From Luminiphilus sp. (lineage in GTDB: Bacteria; Pseudomonadota; Gammaproteobacteria; Pseudomonadales; Halieaceae), in contig JADHNP010000001.1 of assembly GCA_016779445.1 (NCBI GenBank), positions 24,951-88,950 of the forward strand: a stretch of 64,000 nucleotides of DNA, in the 5' to 3' direction. A model generated the notes under the pieces. That model had not been told where the DNA came from. It saw only the letters and a list, made by a program, of their open reading frames with translations, and did not search any database. Positions 49,576-62,450 of this stretch are shown here, piece after piece. Numbering within the stretch: the first letter of the stretch is position 1; each line of letters starts with the position of its first letter. The position numbers were made by a program, and so were the translations under genes.

Positions 49576-50652
49576 TTATCGCTGGATAGTGAGGCCGCCA
49601 CGTTCCACGTGGAACAAATTAATGGGGTCCGTACCCCAAGCTCTCTCCAGAGAGGCGCGATCCACTGCCGTCATAATGACCTGTCTCCCGCCTCGCAGCT
49701 GCGCACAAACACTGGCGCAATGTGCCTCATCAAGCTCTGCTGGCAGATCATCGATTAAATATAACGGCGGCATTTTGGATGCCTCCTCAATAATCTGCCC
49801 CTGAGACAGCTTCAACGCCACCAACAACAACTTCATTTGGCCTCGCGACAGCACATCCGATGCAGCGGCACCATCCGCGTTAAACCGCAGGTCTGCGCGA
49901 TGCGGCCCTACCTGCGTAAACCCCTGTGCAGCATCGCTTTGCGCGTTTTTTTCCAATGCCGCCTGCAGCGACTCTCGTCGATCCCAGCCTGCGCGAAACG
50001 CCATCCCCACCTCTGCCAAATTTGGGGAAATAGCGGGAGCAAGCTGCCTCAGCTTTTCGGCATAACGGTCCACCACGCTTCCACGCGCCTGGGTCAACTG
50101 CTCGCCTGCCTGAGCCAACTCGTGGCGCCATGCCTTATCTGAACTCAGTATACCACGGCGCAAGCCGCTATTTCTCTGTCGGAGCAAGTGGGTATAGCGC
50201 CGCCACAGAGCCAAAAACCCCTGTTCCACGTGGAACAACGTGCCATCGAGCAACCGGCGACGCCCCTCTGGAGCGCCGGTGAGGAGCGTCAAACCCTCCG
50301 TATCCATCAAGACCAAAGGGAGCTGCTGAGCCAACGCCGACAGGGAGGGTATTGTCTCGCCATTCACTTTGGCTCGCACCAGGCCGTCGCGGTACTTCTC
50401 TATCCCCATAACAAACGGCCGGCCGCCGCTGCTCCCGCGCCCGACAATGCGACACGAGGTGGCTTCGTGTTGAATCACGGGCTTAGATTGGTGGGTGCGA
50501 AAAGAACGGCCTACACCAAGCAAATGAACCGCCTCTAAAAAACTGGTTTTACCGGAACCGTTAGCGCCAAAGAGTGCGGTCGCGCCACTTGCAAGGCTAA
50601 CCTCTAATTTGGCCAGGTTGCGAACACACTTGATCTCTATATGCTCAAGCAT
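49576..50652 (-). CDS. recF: DNA replication and repair protein RecF
   Basis: SMC-like ATPase that helps load RecA at gaps. Walker A is GANGSGKTSFLE near residue 31, the signature region is LSRGQMKLLLVALKLSQG, Walker B is PLYLIDDLPAELDE. 358 aa. Two parS sites are embedded in its coding sequence, each encoding FHVE. It follows dnaN by 18 bases in the dnaA-dnaN-recF-gyrB order. Confidence 0.97.
   Translation of the reverse strand: MLEHIEIKCVRNLAKLEVSLASGATALFGANGSGKTSFLEAVHLLGVGRSFRTHQSKPVIQHEATSCRIVGRGSSGGRPFVMGIEKYRDGLVRAKVNGETIPSLSALAQQLPLVLMDTEGLTLLTGAPEGRRRLLDGTLFHVEQGFLALWRRYTHLLRQRNSGLRRGILSSDKAWRHELAQAGEQLTQARGSVVDRYAEKLRQLAPAISPNLAEVGMAFRAGWDRRESLQAALEKNAQSDAAQGFTQVGPHRADLRFNADGAAASDVLSRGQMKLLLVALKLSQGQIIEEASKMPPLYLIDDLPAELDEAHCASVCAQLRGGRQVIMTAVDRASLERAWGTDPINLFHVERGGLTIQR
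49601..49616. other. parS-like site (15/16) in the 3' part of recF
   Basis: CGTTCCACGTGGAACA matches the near-universal parS consensus TGTTCCACGTGGAACA in all but its first base. The inner palindrome GTTCCACGTGGAAC is perfect. It lies within the last codons of recF and should bind the ParB encoded at 61563. Confidence 0.85.
50222..50237. other. parS centromere site in the middle of recF
   Basis: TGTTCCACGTGGAACA is a perfect 16-base parS. It is a fully symmetrical palindrome, and it falls in codons for LFHVEQ of RecF. It is about 620 bp from the second site and about 11 kb from parB. Confidence 0.92.
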
Positions 50653-53239: not shown

Positions 53240-53732
53240 CGCAATCGCTCCTTTTTAGTTCTACCTTTGTGCTTCTTTTTTTGTTTGAACGGATCGGTCC
53301 CGCCGAACAAGCCTATGAACGCCCCTGGGGTGAGCCGCTTAAAAAGCCAGGCTCCGGATCGCGTCACGGCAACCAGTTATCCACACCGCCACAACGTTAT
53401 CAACATGTTTTTTATGCCTTAATATCAGCACTTTATCGTGTTTTTGAGCGCGTACAGAACAACCCTCCTATTTGCAAGCAAAACTTGCGGCCGGCTGTGC
53501 ATAACCTGTTATTAACTTTGGGTTAACTTGTGGCTTTCAGTGCTGCTCGGTCATTATTGGGAACCCTGCCGAGCCCCTGTTTGTAAGCGCTAGCTAACTT
53601 ACCATCCCCTCAATTTCCGAGCTCCCCACAATCCGCCAACGATCGCCGATCGCCAATGTTGCCGCGACACAACCAGTGGATGATTTAAATATGGTTGCGT
53701 TAACGGCGCACCTAAAACGACATTCATTAATG
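53240..53732. promoter_or_regulatory. dnaA upstream region with DnaA boxes
   Basis: The 613-bp gap between dnaA and rpmH contains two perfect DnaA boxes, TTATCCACA at 53377-53385 and TGTGCATAA (reverse TTATGCACA) at 53496-53504, and a one-mismatch box TTATCAACA at 53397-53405. Four GATC sites occur here. The arrangement fits dnaA autoregulation; it is also where Pseudomonas has oriC, but the base-composition skew does not change here (see the mnmE-mnmG gap). No gene of its own is convincing. Confidence 0.75.
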
Positions 53733-54018: not shown

Positions 54019-54381
54019 ATGCCCACGCTTCCATTATCCGCCAAGCTCTCTGAGCGACATCACTACAGCGGCGTTTTCAACGCCCCGCAGATCCGCGTCA
54101 GCACGCGCTCATTTTTAATATTGGCGAAACCCTCCCCAACTAAGCGGTCCAGGATCGGTATCGTCGTTGCCAAAAAACACATCCGCAAAGCCACCCGACG
54201 AAACCGAGTAAAACGCATCATCAGGGAGCACTTTCGGCTCTATCAGCCTTCCGTTTCTCTCGATCTGGTGATTTTGGCCAGAAGCCCTGCAGACCAACTT
54301 TCAAACCCCTTAGTTTGGCGGGATCTGCATCACCTGTGGCTTGCACTGAATAAAAAAGCCTGCACTTTATGCGTTGGCTGA
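54019..54381 (+). CDS. rnpA: Ribonuclease P protein component
   Basis: Protein cofactor of RNase P, which matures tRNA 5' ends. The conserved RRNRVKRIIREHFR (RNR motif) that contacts the RNA is present, with GIVVAKKHIRKA before it. 120 aa. It follows rpmH by 31 bases and overlaps yidD by 13. Confidence 0.97.
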   Translation: MPTLPLSAKLSERHHYSGVFNAPQIRVSTRSFLILAKPSPTKRSRIGIVVAKKHIRKATRRNRVKRIIREHFRLYQPSVSLDLVILARSPADQLSNPLVWRDLHHLWLALNKKACTLCVG

Positions 54382-54635
54382 AGCGCATGGACCAATTACT
54401 GGCAAGGGGTCTATGCCTCCTCATACGCGCCTACCAACTCACGTTGAGCCCTTGGCTCGGGCGATGGTGCCGCTTTTCACCAACTTGTTCACAATACGGG
54501 ATTGACGCACTACAGACCCACGGTACCCTAGCCGGCTGTTGGCTCACTGTTCGCAGGGTCATTCGCTGTAACCCCTGGTGTATCGGCGGATATGACCCCG
54601 TACCGAAACACCACCCATATCGTCAACCAGACTGA
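54369..54635 (+). CDS. yidD: Membrane protein insertion efficiency factor YidD
   Basis: Small membrane-associated protein thought to help YidC-dependent insertion. LIRAYQLTLSPWLGRWCRFSPTCSQYGIDAL is diagnostic, with the conserved cysteines in CRFSPTCSQY and the RCNPWCIGGYDPVP end. 88 aa. Overlaps rnpA, and ends 10 bases before the yidC start. Confidence 0.96.
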   Translation: MRWLKRMDQLLARGLCLLIRAYQLTLSPWLGRWCRFSPTCSQYGIDALQTHGTLAGCWLTVRRVIRCNPWCIGGYDPVPKHHPYRQPD

Positions 54636-54645
54636 GACCGAACAC

Positions 54646-56346
54646 ATGGACATCCCTCGATATGCTTTGATCGCCGCCAGTATCCTGCTGGGTCTTATGC
54701 TGTTGGGAGAGTGGACGCGCTTCACTGCCGATGAACAGGCCTTGATACCTGCGAGCCCCATTGTCGAATCCACCGCGCAGAAAGATAGCCCGACCCTATT
54801 GGGGGACCCCACAACAAGTTTTGATCAATCGCCTCAGGACGACCTGCCCAGCGATGAAGACCTTGCCCAGTCTTCCAGCGCTGACATTTACAACGGCATC
54901 AGCGCACAAGCCAATTCATTGGTAAGGGTCACTACCGATGTTCTCGAAATCATTATTGACCTCGAGGGAGGAGATGTTGTGGGCGCGGCCTTGCGCGATT
55001 ACCCCAAAACCCTCGCTGATCCCTCTGACCCATTTGTGCTCCTTGAAAGAAACGGCCAACGAACCTACGTAGCGCAGTCCGGTCTGGTCGGGCCAGATGG
55101 GATTGATCGCCAAGCGCGTGCGTTGTATCGGACAGACAGGCCCAGTTACGAACTCGCAAGCGGCAACACACTTGACATAGACCTGCATTACCAAAATGAC
55201 GACGGCGCCCTTGCGGTAAAAAAAATATACCGCTTCCAGCGAGGCAGCCATACGATTTTGGTTGACCACGAGATACAAAATTTATCAAGCCGGACCACTA
55301 ACCTCACGCCTTTTGCCCAACTAAAGAGAGATAGTTCATCCGCACCGTCTGACAATAACTCAGGCATGGGTATGCGCCCATTTTTGGGATCAGCGCTGAC
55401 ACACTCTGAACAACGGTTTGAAAAGTTTGATTTTGAAGAAATGGCTGAAAACCCTTTTAAAGCCGATGTGCAAGGCGGCTGGATCGCAATGCTTCAACAC
55501 TACTTTGTCAGCGCATGGGTACCTAGTGCGACCGACACCCATCGATATCGAACCCGCCATACCAACAATGGCTTCAATATTATCGGCTATACGGGACCCG
55601 CACTAACCCTCGCTCCCGGGGAAACGTCTACCGTAACTAACACCCTCTATGTCGGTCCAAAAAACCAATCCGTTTTATCTGATCTGGCGCCTCATCTCGA
55701 CTTGGTTGTTGATTACGGTTGGCTATGGTGGATCGCCCAACCACTCTTTTGGCTCCTCACAACGATCCAGTCGGTTGTCGTGAACTGGGGTATAGCGATT
55801 ATCGTTTTGACGCTGCTTGTCAAACTCGCCTTTTTTCAGCTCTCTGCTGCGGGTTACAAATCTATGGCGAGGATGAGAAAAGTTCAGCCTCGCATCGTGG
55901 CAATTCGGGACGAATATGCTAATGACAAGGCCAAGCAGTCTCAGGCGATGATGGAGCTTTACAAGAAGGAAAAAATTAATCCCTTGGGTGGGTGTTTTCC
56001 CATCCTTGTGCAAATGCCCGTATTTATCGCCTTATATTGGGTGCTGATGGAGTCTGTGGAGTTACGGCAAGCGCCGCTTGCACTTTGGATAAAAGACCTG
56101 TCGGTAATGGATCCATATTTTGTGTTACCCATCCTGATGGGCGCAAGTATGTTTTACATGCAAAAACTTAACCCAGCGCCACCAGACCCCATGCAAGCAA
56201 AAATTATGCAGTGGATGCCCATCGTGTTTACGTTCTTTTTCCTGTGGTTCCCTGCCGGCTTAGTGCTTTATTGGCTCTGCAATAATCTGTTGTCGATGGG
56301 ACAGCAATACATCATCAATCGGCGAATTGAAAACGGCAGTCTTTAA
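54646..56346 (+). CDS. yidC: Membrane protein insertase YidC
   Basis: Inserts and folds inner-membrane proteins, with or without Sec. N-terminal membrane helix (YALIAASILLGLMLLG), large periplasmic domain to about residue 340, then the conserved five-helix core with WGIAIIVLTLLVKLAFFQLS, NPLGGCFPILVQMPVFIALYWVL and the WFPAGLVLYWLCNNLLS end. The track start at 54592 lies in yidD; the ATG at 54646 gives 566 aa. Confidence 0.97.
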   Translation: MDIPRYALIAASILLGLMLLGEWTRFTADEQALIPASPIVESTAQKDSPTLLGDPTTSFDQSPQDDLPSDEDLAQSSSADIYNGISAQANSLVRVTTDVLEIIIDLEGGDVVGAALRDYPKTLADPSDPFVLLERNGQRTYVAQSGLVGPDGIDRQARALYRTDRPSYELASGNTLDIDLHYQNDDGALAVKKIYRFQRGSHTILVDHEIQNLSSRTTNLTPFAQLKRDSSSAPSDNNSGMGMRPFLGSALTHSEQRFEKFDFEEMAENPFKADVQGGWIAMLQHYFVSAWVPSATDTHRYRTRHTNNGFNIIGYTGPALTLAPGETSTVTNTLYVGPKNQSVLSDLAPHLDLVVDYGWLWWIAQPLFWLLTTIQSVVVNWGIAIIVLTLLVKLAFFQLSAAGYKSMARMRKVQPRIVAIRDEYANDKAKQSQAMMELYKKEKINPLGGCFPILVQMPVFIALYWVLMESVELRQAPLALWIKDLSVMDPYFVLPILMGASMFYMQKLNPAPPDPMQAKIMQWMPIVFTFFFLWFPAGLVLYWLCNNLLSMGQQYIINRRIENGSL

Positions 56347-56353
56347 TCCTCAT

Positions 56354-57721
56354 ATGGATCAGCAATCTGAACTGGTCGAAACTGCCGCGCTGGACGGGGA
56401 CACCATTGCCGCTATTGCCACCCCTCCAGGTAAAGGGGGCGTAGCGATCGTGAGGCTATCCGGTCATCATGCTTGGCCCATTACCCGAACCCTTTGTATG
56501 CGGTCAGTGGAACCCCGAACCCCAACGCTCTCTAACTTCGTACATCAAAGCGTCGTTATTGATCAGGGTCTCGTCTTGCTTTTTCAGGGGCCGAACTCTT
56601 TTACCGGCGAAGATGTTGCCGAACTTCATTGCCATGGTGGTGTCGTCATCAGTTCGATGTTGCTCAACGCGTGTCTGGCGCTTGGGGCGCGCATGGCGAG
56701 GCCAGGAGAATTTTCAGAACGGGCTTTTATGAATAACAAGCTTGATCTCGCGCAAGCGGAAGGATTGGCAGACCTCATTGATGCCCCCACCCAACAAGCA
56801 GCCCAGCAAGCATCTGCCTCGCTTAGAGGCGCTTTTTCCGATGCCGTCAACGCTCTCGGTGATGATTTACTCAAGCTCAGAATCTATATCGAAGCTGCCA
56901 TTGATTTCCCAGAAGAAGAAATCGATTTTTTGTCGGATAAAAACATACACCAGAACTTATCAACTGTACTTACTAGACTGGACACCCTTATTAACAATGC
57001 GCGACAAGGCGCACTGATGAGCAAAACCGCGAAAATTGTCCTTACAGGCAAACCTAATGTCGGAAAAAGTAGCCTAATGAATCAGCTTGCTCGTGAACCT
57101 GTTGCCATCGTTACCGCTGTACCTGGTACCACTAGAGATGTTGTGAAACAGATGCTCAATTTAAAAGGCGTAGCATTTGAATTTGCCGACACTGCAGGCA
57201 TTAGGGAAGCAACCGATATCATTGAAAAAGAGGGAATTCAGCGAGCCCGTAGCGAACTGGAAACCGCCAATCTCGTTATTGAAGTAATTGATGACGCAGC
57301 AGATAAAAATACGGAGGACCATTTCGAAGGCGCTGCTCCGGCCATCCGGGTCCTAAATAAAATTGACCTCTCTGAGCGCAAGCCGGGAGAACAACCATCA
57401 GAGGCCATCACTACTATTGGGGTATCAGCAATAACAGGTGCGGGTATTGCTGAGCTTGAAAACGCAATTTTGTCCATTCTGGGATTTTCCAACACTGTAA
57501 CCTCAACACCCTATAGCGCCAGAGAACGCCATGTGGCGATTCTTCAGGCCACCTACGGCCTGCTTCACAAAGGTATTGAACAGTTTCATAAAACTGGTGC
57601 GGGAGAAATTTTGGCAGAAGATCTTCGACACGCTCATGAAACCTTAGGAGAAATAACCGGCGTATTGGGTGCAGACGAGTTGCTAGGAGAAATTTTTTCT
57701 TCTTTTTGCATCGGAAAATGA
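56354..57721 (+). CDS. mnmE: tRNA-modification GTPase MnmE
   Basis: With MnmG it forms the cmnm5U34/mnm5U34 group on tRNA wobble uridines, using methylene-THF. N-terminal folate-binding domain (DTIAAIATPPGKGGVAIVRLSG), a helical domain split by the G domain (G1 GKPNVGKSSLMN, DTAGIRE, NKID), and the C-terminal FCIGK with the conserved cysteine. The ATG at 56354 replaces the track's TTG; 455 aa. Partner mnmG lies beyond the putative origin. Confidence 0.97.
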   Translation: MDQQSELVETAALDGDTIAAIATPPGKGGVAIVRLSGHHAWPITRTLCMRSVEPRTPTLSNFVHQSVVIDQGLVLLFQGPNSFTGEDVAELHCHGGVVISSMLLNACLALGARMARPGEFSERAFMNNKLDLAQAEGLADLIDAPTQQAAQQASASLRGAFSDAVNALGDDLLKLRIYIEAAIDFPEEEIDFLSDKNIHQNLSTVLTRLDTLINNARQGALMSKTAKIVLTGKPNVGKSSLMNQLAREPVAIVTAVPGTTRDVVKQMLNLKGVAFEFADTAGIREATDIIEKEGIQRARSELETANLVIEVIDDAADKNTEDHFEGAAPAIRVLNKIDLSERKPGEQPSEAITTIGVSAITGAGIAELENAILSILGFSNTVTSTPYSARERHVAILQATYGLLHKGIEQFHKTGAGEILAEDLRHAHETLGEITGVLGADELLGEIFSSFCIGK

Positions 57722-58245
57722 CAGGGCGCTATATTTTTAAGGCTGTTTAAAGGTTCAAAACTCGATAAATGTTTAGATAAACATCTTTATTTCTATGCGG
57801 TTAAGTCACTCACAGCCTATGCACACGTCTGGCACATCGTATCAACAGATAAGCGCCTAGCTTCAAACTGCTTGGTAAGCACTGTGCGTAACATCGGGAG
57901 AACCACTATACCCGCCTGTGCATACCTTTATCGCCTCTTGTAGGCACGCTACTGTCCACGGGTTAACCCCAACTAACTCAGGATTTTTAAGTGCGTTTTC
58001 CTAAGCGTTAGATGACATATAAGAAGCTGTTTACATTGATGTTTTTGGACTTATCCTCCAAAACTAGCCCCCCTAATAACAACAGTATTTAAGTACTTTT
58101 CATATATATATTACTTAATATATTGTTGTGTACTACTGTGAAACTGTGACCTTTGGCGGCCATTTACGTCAACTAGACTGGTTCATACTGACCGTTAGCG
58201 CGTTTATACTCCGCTCCCGCTTTTAAAAGTAGTTACGCTACCGCC
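57722..58245. other. Putative chromosomal replication origin (oriC)
   Basis: A 524-bp gap without a gene. Three one-mismatch DnaA boxes: CTATGCACA (57817-57825), TGTGCGTAA (57883-57891) and TGTGCATAC (57917-57925). Around 58089-58128 is a long AT-rich block (CATATATATATTACTTAATA) with the inverted repeat TTAAGTA/TACTTAA (58089-58095, 58112-58118), a likely unwinding element. Another perfect repeat ATGTTTA-GA-TAAACAT sits at 57769-57784. No GATC is seen. GC skew on the + strand changes sign across it (see findings). In E. coli oriC likewise lies next to mnmG. Confidence 0.75.
58182..58210 (+). promoter_or_regulatory. Putative promoter of mnmG
   Basis: TTCATA (58182-58187), a 17-base spacer, and TATACT (58205-58210), four and five matches to the sigma70 hexamers. 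It would start a transcript about 30 bases before the mnmG ATG. In E. coli, gidA transcription beside oriC affects initiation; the same could hold here. Confidence 0.55.
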
Positions 58246-60147
58246 ATGCAACATCCAAACGCATATGACGTCATCGTGATCGGTGGTGGGCACGCGGGTA
58301 CAGAGGCGACCTTGGCTTCCGCCCGCATGGGTGCGCGAACACTGCTGATTACTCATGCCCTGGATACCTTGGGGCAAATGTCGTGTAACCCCGCTATTGG
58401 GGGCATTGGAAAAAGCCACCTAGTGAGAGAGGTCGATGCTATGGGCGGCATTATGGCTCGCGCGACTGATTTATCGGGAATCCAATTCAGGGTGTTGAAC
58501 GCAAGAAAGGGTCCAGCAGTGAGAGCAACTCGCGCACAAGCTGATCGCGCCCTTTATCGCCAGGCTATTCGTGAAGTTTTAGAACACACTGAAAATGTTC
58601 AGATTTTTCAAGACGCAGTAGAAGATATAAAAATTACTGGAAACGCGGTATCTGGTGTTATCACGCGCTCCGGTATTGTTTTCTCTGCTAGGGCAGTAGT
58701 GCTTACCGCAGGTACTTTTCTTAATGGAAAAATGCATGTGGGAGAGTCTCAGGCTTCAGGTGGGCGCATGGGAGATGCGGCTTCTTTGGGATTGGCAGAC
58801 CGCCTCAGGGAGGTGTGTCCGAGGGTAGGGCGGTTAAAAACAGGCACACCCCCGCGCATCGATGCTAGCTCCGTCAATTTTAATTTGATGGCTGAACAGT
58901 GGGGTGACGAGCCCCGCCCGGTGATGTCGTTGATGGGCCGACGTGAGGATCATCCGTCGCAACGGTGCTGTTGGATAACGGAAACAAATGAAAAAACGCA
59001 TGAGCTTATTCGATCCGGGCTTGATCGCTCTCCGCTTTTTGGCGGCGTCATCGAAGGTGTCGGACCGCGTTATTGCCCGAGCATTGAAGACAAAATTCAC
59101 CGGTTTGCGGATAAATCCTCGCATCAGATTTTTATTGAACCAGAAGGGCTGACAACAAACGAGCTTTATCCCAATGGGATCTCCACGTCTTTACCATTCG
59201 ACATTCAACTGGGTCTGGTGCGGTCAATTAAAGGACTAGAAAAAGCGCATATCACAAGACCTGGATACGCGATTGAGTACGATTATTTTGACCCGCGCGA
59301 TTTACAGCACAGCCTGGAAACAAAAACCGTTTCGGGTTTGTTTTTTGCGGGTCAAATCAATGGCACAACGGGTTACGAAGAGGCAGCAGCGCAAGGTTTG
59401 GTGGCTGGCATTAATGCTGTGTGCTTGGTGAGAGAACACGATCCGTGGGAGCCAAAACGAGACGAAGCTTACATCGGCGTGTTGGTTGATGATCTGGTGA
59501 CGCTTGGCACTTCAGAACCCTACCGAATGTTCACTTCTCGTGCTGAATATCGGCTTCAGTTGAGGGAAGATAATGCGGATTTGAGGCTAACTGAAACGGG
59601 CCGGGTACTGGGTGTTATAGGAGAACAGCAATGGCGCTGTTTTGTTGAAAAGAGAGAGGCTATCGGTCAAGAAAAAGAAAGGCTGGAAAGCGAATATGTA
59701 CAACCGGACTCTGAAGTAGCTCGAAAAATCACGCCTTATTTAGCAAAGCCGCTGAATCGGGGGTACTCATTGGCTGAACTGTTAAAGCGACCGGAATTAA
59801 CCCATACGATATTATATGCGGCCGCGCCTTCAAAACGCCCGGTACAAGAGTCAGTAGCGGAGCAGGTCGCAATCCAGCTGAAATACGCAGGGTATATAGA
59901 TCGTCAACAACAGGACATCTCCCGCTTACAACGACACGAGGCGATGACAATTCCAAGCGATCTTAATTTTGATGAGGTCGATGGATTGTCCCATGAAATT
60001 TCTCAAAAACTTGCTGAATTTCGACCAACCAATCTGGCTCGCGCTGGGAGAATACCCGGCGTCACACCCGCGGCAATGTCTTTGTTGTTGGTTTATCTCA
60101 AGAAGCGAGCGATGAGCGAGTCTTTACGCGCCACAGCGAATGGCTGA
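58246..60147 (+). CDS. mnmG: tRNA uridine 5-carboxymethylaminomethyl modification enzyme MnmG
   Basis: FAD-dependent partner of MnmE in wobble-uridine modification. Dinucleotide-binding GGGHAGTEA at the N-terminus, then [22 protein letters not shown] and [14 protein letters not shown], and the helical C-terminal MnmE-binding domain ending with [18 protein letters not shown]. 633 aa. First gene on the right side of the putative origin; it overlaps rsmG by eight bases. Confidence 0.98.
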
Positions 60148-60784
60148 ACCCGAAACACAACTTCTTAGCTCATCCGCGCGATCCATAGGCATTTCACTCA
60201 GTGATATGCAACTCGAACAGCTCATTGCATATGTGGATTTGCTCGAAAAATGGAACAGAACCTATAACTTGACGTCAATTCGAGATAGACAAGAAATGTT
60301 GTTGAGGCATGTGTTAGAAAGCTTGGCTGTTTTACCTCTTCTCCAGGGGTCGAATCGACTAGATGTGGGCACAGGGGCGGGCATACCGGGCATTCCCCTG
60401 GCGATAGCGGACCGGGAATTTCCCTACACGCTGATCGATAGCAATGGAAAAAAAACGCGATTTTTGGCTGAGGTGAAAAGACAGTTGGGTTTAACTAACA
60501 TCCAGATTGAAACTGTGCGTATCGAGTCCTGGCAGCCCAAAACGGTTTACGATGCAGTGTTAACAAGGGCATTTGCGGACGTGAAAACAACGCTAACCAG
60601 AATCAGCCACGTGTTGAGCAAAGAGGGGTCGCTGTACGCAATGACAACCGATAGTGTTGCCAAGGTCGATTCAGCGATACCCGATAATATGTATTTGCAT
60701 CAGGCTAAAGAGATCAGGGTGCCCGGACAAGACTGGTCCTTCAATGTGATGATAATTGGGCGAAGCCAAGGCGCGGTTGTATGA
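60140..60784 (+). CDS. rsmG: 16S rRNA m7G527 methyltransferase
   Basis: Methylates G527 of 16S rRNA with SAM (formerly gidB). [28 protein letters not shown] is the N-terminal signature and [17 protein letters not shown] the SAM loop. 214 aa. Overlaps mnmG upstream and parA downstream by four bases (ATGA), so co-translated with the segregation genes. Confidence 0.96.
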
Positions 60785-61563
60785 AGGTTGTTGCAATAGC
60801 CAACCAAAAAGGTGGCGTGGGGAAAACGACAACCAGCGTCAATTTATCTGCCGCGTTAGCAGCAATGGATAAGCGGGTGTTGCTCCTAGATTTGGATCCT
60901 CAAGGCAATGCATCGGTATCTGTCGGGTTGAACAAGTCAGAGCTGGTCACCAGTACATATGAGCTATTGGTAGAGCAGCAGCCATTAGAGGAGGTTGCCC
61001 TCTCTCTTCCACAACTTCGTATGGACGTGGTGCCGGCCAATGGTGATTTAACAGCGGCTGAAGTTGCCCTATTGTCGGTGGATGATCGAGAGCAGCGGTT
61101 GAAGCAGGCGCTCGAGTCAGGGACGCAACGATACGATTTTGTCATCATCGATTGTCCCCCCTCACTTAACATGCTCACTCTCAATGCATTAGTGGCGGCA
61201 AACTCTGTCTTAATAACGATGCAATGTGAGTATTTTGCGTTGGAAGGGCTGTCAGCTCTGCTAGAGACGATCAACACGATCAATCAAACAGTGAATCCTA
61301 GCCTGTGCGTAGAAGGAATTTTGCGCACGCTTTACGATCCAAGAAATGCCCTAACAAATGAGGTGTCTGAGCAGCTCCATCAGCATTTCGAGGGCTTGGT
61401 TTACCGGACAGTGATCCCGAGAAATGTTCGTTTGGCCGAGGCGCCAAGCCACGGGCTGCCGGGAATTGTTTATGATCGTCTGGCCAGAGGCGCTACCGCT
61501 TATATGGCGCTGGCCGGGGAATTTATGCGCAGGCAAGAACATCATTCTAAGGACAATGTTTAA
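60781..61563 (+). CDS. parA: Chromosome partitioning ATPase ParA (Soj)
   Basis: Deviant Walker ATPase that moves ParB-bound origins over the nucleoid. KGGVGKTTTSVNLSAAL is the signature with the extra lysine, and VIIDCPPSLNMLTLNAL the B motif. 260 aa, the chromosomal short form without an N-terminal HTH. Overlaps rsmG and parB (TAATG). Confidence 0.97.
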   Translation: MKVVAIANQKGGVGKTTTSVNLSAALAAMDKRVLLLDLDPQGNASVSVGLNKSELVTSTYELLVEQQPLEEVALSLPQLRMDVVPANGDLTAAEVALLSVDDREQRLKQALESGTQRYDFVIIDCPPSLNMLTLNALVAANSVLITMQCEYFALEGLSALLETINTINQTVNPSLCVEGILRTLYDPRNALTNEVSEQLHQHFEGLVYRTVIPRNVRLAEAPSHGLPGIVYDRLARGATAYMALAGEFMRRQEHHSKDNV

Positions 61564-62450
61564 TGGTCCAGAAGCGAAAGTTAAATCGGGGGCTAGAGGC
61601 TCTGCTTGGGTCTGGCCTCATTGCCAAGCCACATCAAGAAGTGACGGCAAGCACCGCCGAAACAAGCGGTAGTGCAGAGTTCACCGTTGCAACCGCAGAG
61701 GTCCCTATTGAGCATTTGCAGCGGGGAATCTATCAACCGCGAAGCGAATTCGAACCAGAAGCCCTGCAAACGCTCGCATCGAGCATTACAGCGCAAGGTA
61801 TTTTGCAGCCCGTGGTTGTCCGTCCGTTATCCAACCACCGGTACGAAATTCTGTCTGGGGAGCGACGCTGGCGGGCGGCGCAGCTCGCTGGATTAGATCA
61901 TGTGCCCGTGGTGATCAGGGATGTGCCTGATAAAGATGCCATCGCCATAGCGCTTATTGAAAACATTCAGAGAGAGGACTTGAACCCGGTGGAGGAAGCG
62001 GCTGGTCTAAAACGGCTTCAAGATGAATTTGAGCTGAACCAAGAACAGATTGCTGAAGCGGTGGGCCGATCCCGGTCTGCTGTCGCGAACAGTTTACGGC
62101 TGCTGAACTTGCACGGTGATGTGCAGCACATGCTGAGGCAGGGAGAAATCGAAGTGGGTCACGCAAAGGTGCTGCTGGGCCTTGAAAATGCAGATCAGCT
62201 ACGAGCGGCTCGACAAGTGGTGAAGCGACGTCTCTCTGTCAGACAAACGGAAGTATTGGTGAAGGGCTGGGGCGCGCAAGACACGCCAAAGCCTCATAAG
62301 GACCCCGATGTCAGTCGGTTAGAACAAGATTTAAGCGATCGGTTTGGTGCGCGAGTCAGGATTCACCATCAACAGAACGGTCGGGGTCGATTGGAAATAC
62401 AGTACACAAACCTCGACGAATTGGACGGGATTTTAAACAGACTGGATTAA
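61563..62450 (+). CDS. parB: Chromosome partitioning protein ParB
   Basis: CTP-dependent DNA clamp that loads at parS. The N-terminal CTPase region has GERRWRAAQLAG and ENIQREDLNPVEEA; a HTH (LNQEQIAEAVGRSRSAVANSL) follows, then the C-terminal dimer domain. 295 aa. Targets are the two parS sites in recF. A 65-bp gap separates it from atpI. Confidence 0.97.
   Translation: MVQKRKLNRGLEALLGSGLIAKPHQEVTASTAETSGSAEFTVATAEVPIEHLQRGIYQPRSEFEPEALQTLASSITAQGILQPVVVRPLSNHRYEILSGERRWRAAQLAGLDHVPVVIRDVPDKDAIAIALIENIQREDLNPVEEAAGLKRLQDEFELNQEQIAEAVGRSRSAVANSLRLLNLHGDVQHMLRQGEIEVGHAKVLLGLENADQLRAARQVVKRRLSVRQTEVLVKGWGAQDTPKPHKDPDVSRLEQDLSDRFGARVRIHHQQNGRGRLEIQYTNLDELDGILNRLD

Follow-up and report, generated by a model that had tools for sequence, protein, structure and literature searches.

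Replication origins adjacent to mnmG (gidA) are, in general terms, the standard arrangement in Gammaproteobacteria. The best-described one is oriC of E. coli, which lies directly upstream of mnmG with its unwinding element on the mnmG side; this position, cited in the original prediction, was confirmed from the mioC-mnmG gap (NC_000913.3, 3,925,744-3,925,975). For Pseudomonas, on the other hand, oriC has been placed in the gap between dnaA and rpmH (Yee and Smith 1990, as cited in PMC4403523), and two origin candidates have been tested in P. aeruginosa (Jiang 2006, as cited in PMC4403523). At a more mechanistic level, the basal unwinding system has been described as a DnaA box, a spacer (with a peak at 10-13 bp) and a series of DnaA-trios (PMC8287927), the distance from the unwinding element to the proximal box being critical (PMC4285127). 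The DoriC 10 database lists two candidate origins for some Gammaproteobacteria and kept the one adjacent to gidA (PMC6323995). No paper on replication origins in Halieaceae was found in the part of the literature covered.

The DNA analysed here (the window, 64,000 nucleotides) spans positions 24,951-88,950 of an 88,950-bp contig from a draft genome of 2.47 Mb, and its closest named relatives are Halieaceae/Luminiphilus metagenome assemblies. The minus strand carries, in order, gyrB, recF, dnaN and dnaA, and the plus strand then carries rpmH, rnpA, yidC, mnmE, a gap, mnmG, rsmG, parA and parB. This ancestral gene order is the same as in Pseudomonas, a member of the same taxonomic order, and the dnaA-rpmH gap holds conserved DnaA boxes here too. 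The proposed oriC is the mnmE-mnmG gap (57,722-58,245), delimited by mnmE (56,327-57,721, plus strand) and mnmG (58,246-60,147, plus strand; above the cut-off of TIGR00136), and it had been predicted to be an AT-rich, gene-free stretch of 524 bp between two genes on the same strand. No gene is evident in it, both neighbours are indeed on the plus strand, and its GC content is 41.4%, with just 0.25% of the windows of the same size showing a lower value.

The prediction was built on a change in the sign of the GC skew, taken from lines sampled and counted by hand, and those counts match the exact ones over the same ranges: 867 G and 972 C on the plus strand of 54,061-57,720 (skew -0.057), and 1,115 G and 894 C on that of 58,261-62,220 (skew +0.110), a difference with a Fisher p of 2e-7. 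A maximum-likelihood changepoint between 40 and 64 kb sets the sign change at 58,275, with three-log-unit support for 58,072-58,489, and in the 83 kb of the contig to the left of the switch every 5-kb bin has negative skew except the outermost one (+0.002). Such composition reflects the long-term average use of the strands, not present activity. It bears directly on the possibility of a Pseudomonas-type origin in the dnaA-rpmH gap, with the switch at the mnmG gap being either fortuitous, owing to the composition of the genes, or a remnant. That reading could draw on the fact that the best DnaA boxes of the locus, one of them perfect, are in the dnaA-rpmH gap, and on six relatives of the same order (L109, L130-L132, L136 and L147) whose core module lies upstream of dnaA. 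However, moving the changepoint to the dnaA-rpmH gap makes the fit 18.6-22 log units worse than the best location, the genes from rpmH to mnmE have lagging-strand skew in the window in spite of being on the plus strand (mnmE included), and the dnaA gap is the more stable one, with -58.2 kcal/mol against -47.8 kcal/mol for the least stable 50 bp of each gap. The dnaA-rpmH gap does not show the combination of skew switch and module expected of a Pseudomonas-type origin, which is very improbable here.

The relatives allow the two gaps to be told apart in a further way, since an origin at dnaA-rpmH would make yidC and mnmE leading-strand genes, which should then resemble those from mnmG to parB. 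In 35 of the 36 genomes with co-oriented genes, the coding-strand GC3 skew of yidC plus mnmE falls below the value for mnmG to parB (means of -0.148 and +0.072, respectively; p = 9e-11), as in the window. The p-values of these GC3-skew comparisons ignore shared ancestry and are therefore optimistic, because relatives are not independent samples. L109 stands apart, with a gap of only 172 bp and a clearly positive yidC-mnmE skew (+0.125). Rearrangements are also present at the locus: between dnaA and mnmG, L013 (the same genome as L159) and L153 carry the yidC-mnmE block in inverted orientation, L011 carries mnmE alone in that orientation, and six other loci (L127, L129, L130, L137, L140 and L149) carry about 1.5 to 6.4 kb of extra DNA between mnmE and mnmG. 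The inverted blocks are co-directional with a fork coming from the mnmG side. In the more distant Legionella, Methyloprofundus and Halomonas, whose mnmG loci have no dnaA nearby, no clear changepoint was found at mnmG, and these loci were left out of the comparison.

Since the window lies on a single 88,950-bp contig of a draft genome, whole-chromosome skew was followed in two complete congeners, sampling 20 stretches per chromosome. G006 (dnaA at 2.488 Mb; opposite point, 1.12 Mb) has positive skew between the start of the record and ~1.07 Mb, negative skew between 1.2 Mb and ~2.48 Mb, and positive skew once more beyond that. G031 (dnaA at 0.607 Mb; opposite point, 1.97 Mb) has negative skew as far as ~0.6 Mb, then positive skew up to at least 1.82 Mb, and negative skew from 2.0 Mb onwards. 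Each chromosome thus shows only two sign changes, one at the dnaA/mnmG locus and the other about half a chromosome away, and therefore this locus is the origin region. A skew minimum at the dnaA-rpmH gap, which would have spoken for that site, was seen neither in the window nor in the two congeners, the switch being at mnmE-mnmG. In the draft genome, the only parS 14-mer cores (allowing up to one mismatch) are two perfect ones inside recF, 8 kb from the mnmE-mnmG gap: one at 49,601-49,616, with one mismatch to the 16-mer, and TGTTCCACGTGGAACA at 50,222-50,237.

Within the gap, the original prediction had announced near-consensus DnaA boxes. The boxes are there, but the qualifier was generous, as all eight sites have two mismatches to TTATCCACA and none with zero or one mismatch was found in the mnmE-mnmG gap. 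Nevertheless, eight is well above the 1.7 expected from dinucleotide shuffles, none of 1,000 of which reached that number. From left to right, they are TTATCTAAA (57,772-57,780, minus strand), TTAACCGCA (57,796-57,804, minus), CTATGCACA (57,817-57,825, plus; TTATCCACA or CATCCACA in aligned relatives), GTATCAACA (57,839-57,847, plus), TTACGCACA (57,883-57,891, minus; TGTGGATA-type boxes in aligned relatives), GTATGCACA (57,917-57,925, minus), TTAACCCCA (57,963-57,971, plus) and TTATCCTCC (58,051-58,059, plus). The last one is the counterpart of E. coli R1, and is followed on the plus strand by a 13-bp spacer, AAAACTAGCCCCC (58,060-58,072), and then by CTAATAACAACAG and TA-rich DNA, a candidate DNA unwinding element (58,073-58,130). 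The predicted strongly AT-rich element is borne out by the 50-bp stretch of lowest stability in the 64-kb window, which starts at 58,074, one base inside CTAATAA. An alignment of the gap in 12 Halieaceae shows a conserved footprint comprising the box positions 57,817, 57,883 and 58,051, CTAATAACAACA, the TA-rich DNA and a TATACT before mnmG (58,205-58,210, plus strand), which is present in 12 of 12 aligned relatives and is probably the -10 element of the mnmG promoter. As for the IHF site that enterobacterial oriC has between R1 and the remaining boxes, the strict pattern WATCARNNNNTTR, the only form searched, has no match in the gap.

The likeness to E. coli oriC is one of layout: both sites lie directly upstream of mnmG with the unwinding element on the mnmG side, and both carry an R1 box, 13 bp and CTAATAA in the same orientation, at similar distances from box to mnmG (175 bp in E. 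coli and 195 bp in the window). The differences are found in the neighbour (mioC there, mnmE here), in the box itself (TTATCCACA there, TTATCCTCC here) and in GATC, with 14 copies in the E. coli gap and none in this one; no SeqA or Dam was found in this genome or in the relatives searched. With regard to the basal unwinding system, the window has the DnaA box, the 13-bp spacer and then GAT-TAT on the complementary strand. The strict DnaA-trio rule (three or more NAN triplets in a row, no further than 16 bp from a box with up to two mismatches; PMC8287927) fails at the R1-like box, where the series reads GAT TAT TGT TGT and the third and fourth triplets break NAN; those of E. coli are also weak, and three relatives (L079, L098 and L101) do pass the rule.

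The conserved TATACT raises the question of a purely regulatory gap, made up of a DnaA-controlled mnmG promoter and an AT-rich spacer, in which case oriC would lie somewhere else. DnaA can also serve as a transcription regulator, which is in keeping with such a role. It is scarcely credible as the whole explanation, given that the whole-chromosome skew of the two complete congeners puts the origin at this locus and that the fixed 13-bp geometry is the same as in E. coli oriC. Counts of TTATCCACA over the draft genome gave no pointer to an origin.

The recurrence of this geometry was explored by looking for a DnaA box with up to two mismatches and YTAATA, at spacings from 0 to 30 bp, in 46 gaps. 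The 13-bp spacing appeared 23 times and the 12-bp one five times, while any other spacing appeared at most twice; and in 1.19 Mb of DNA from relatives, box-N13-YTAATA has 26 matches, 22 of which are on the plus strand in the mnmG gap. The box-spacer geometry recurs across the order. A matrix of the module, trained only on genomes outside Halieaceae plus E. coli, was then applied to both strands of the 89-kb contig, where 58,051 ranked first (23.8), 53,397 second (19.2) and the third match reached only 7.8; over 200 shuffles, the maximum averaged 11.2 and went no higher than 22.6. The mnmG side scores above the dnaA side in 26 of 27 Halieaceae loci (means of 29.3 and 9.5, respectively), with the window showing the second smallest margin among the 26; in the 27th (L149), the top match is further upstream, between mnmE and mnmG.

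Outside the family, the module is found upstream of dnaA instead of mnmG in the six order-level relatives already mentioned (L109, L130, L131, L132, L136 and L147). The GC3 skew of yidC plus mnmE differs accordingly, with a mean of +0.049 (five of six positive) when the module is at dnaA and of -0.165 (38 of 38 negative) when it is at mnmG (p = 3e-7, ignoring shared ancestry), so module and skew move together. No good module was found in L025 and L105. In L121 and L122, the skew across 20 kb is weak and reversed and neither site carries a strong module, for which reason these two are unusable as a positive control.

The second-ranked match draws attention to the dnaA-rpmH gap, which has three better DnaA boxes (with zero, one and one mismatches): the perfect one at 53,377-53,385 (plus strand), probably involved in dnaA regulation; TTATCAACA at 53,397-53,405 (plus), which followed by N13 and TTAATATC makes a weaker module-like site; and TTATGCACA at 53,496-53,504 (minus). 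These boxes are conserved in 17 aligned genomes. The module-like site is stronger in this species than in its relatives, where the tail is not conserved. The simplest reading, and the most likely one, is that the boxes of this gap regulate dnaA. A split or dual origin, in which both gaps, 4.7 kb apart, would bind DnaA jointly with melting on the mnmG side, is quite unlikely. It would account for conserved DnaA boxes in both gaps, and for the presence in the dnaA gap of the second-ranked module-like site in 89 kb and of an IHF-like site (53,423), and B. subtilis and H. pylori provide examples of bipartite origins (PMC4285127). However, there is a single skew switch, at the mnmG gap, the module of the dnaA gap is not conserved, as reflected in its low mean score in the family, and the known bipartite origins span ~2 kb and enclose dnaA (PMC4285127).

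Taken together, the skew switch, the conserved module, the low stability and the whole-chromosome skew of the congeners place oriC at the mnmG gap, and the central claim of the original prediction, that it lies there and not beside dnaA, holds with the switch seen in the window and two congeners and with the E. coli-like core module. The site combines that switch with an intergenic cluster of DnaA boxes (weak ones only) and an AT-rich element at a fixed box spacing and, judging from sequence, it is very probably the single chromosomal oriC. By analogy with E. coli, DnaA would bind the weak-box cluster at 57.77-58.06 kb, and a filament starting from the R1-like box at 58,051 would span the fixed 13-bp spacer to CTAATAA; the TA-rich element (58,073-58,130) would then melt, and helicase would be loaded there, with bidirectional forks departing. 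The left fork would pass through mnmE, yidC and rpmH before dnaA, and the right one through mnmG, rsmG and parAB. As for the helicase-loading candidate DciA (PF05258), this genome and 10 of 11 relatives gave no match. Neither SeqA nor Dam was found in the own genome (a draft 87% complete) or in the 11 relatives, five of the searched genomes being at least 90% complete, while the E. coli control was detected. The GATC cluster, Dam and SeqA that define the Dam/SeqA-regulated enterobacterial subtype are therefore missing from what was searched, so the origin does not belong with those sequestered in the E. coli manner, and control of re-initiation by an E. coli-like sequestration is unlikely.

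An origin on the mnmG side of this window is well-founded and largely expected. Methods that look for the origin next to dnaA, or whose ranking of gaps relies on perfect DnaA boxes or on the density of GATC, would be ~5 kb off here; GATC enrichment, for instance, is what selected the gidA-side origin in DoriC 10 (PMC6323995), and it would fail in this gap. The fixed box-13-CTAATAA module, common to E. coli, is a better origin landmark. Unlike in Pseudomonas, skew and core module put the origin of this bacterium 5 kb away from the dnaA-rpmH gap, at mnmG, and within Pseudomonadales a change of origin site seems to have taken place in several families. A broader and rather doubtful proposal is that the core module of Pseudomonadales uses one of two docking sites, ahead of mnmG or ahead of dnaA, switched in several families, with the unused dnaA site of Halieaceae being possibly the dormant or auxiliary half of a split origin. 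Both origin positions seem to occur in Pseudomonadales, which is therefore a natural system for studying origin relocation.
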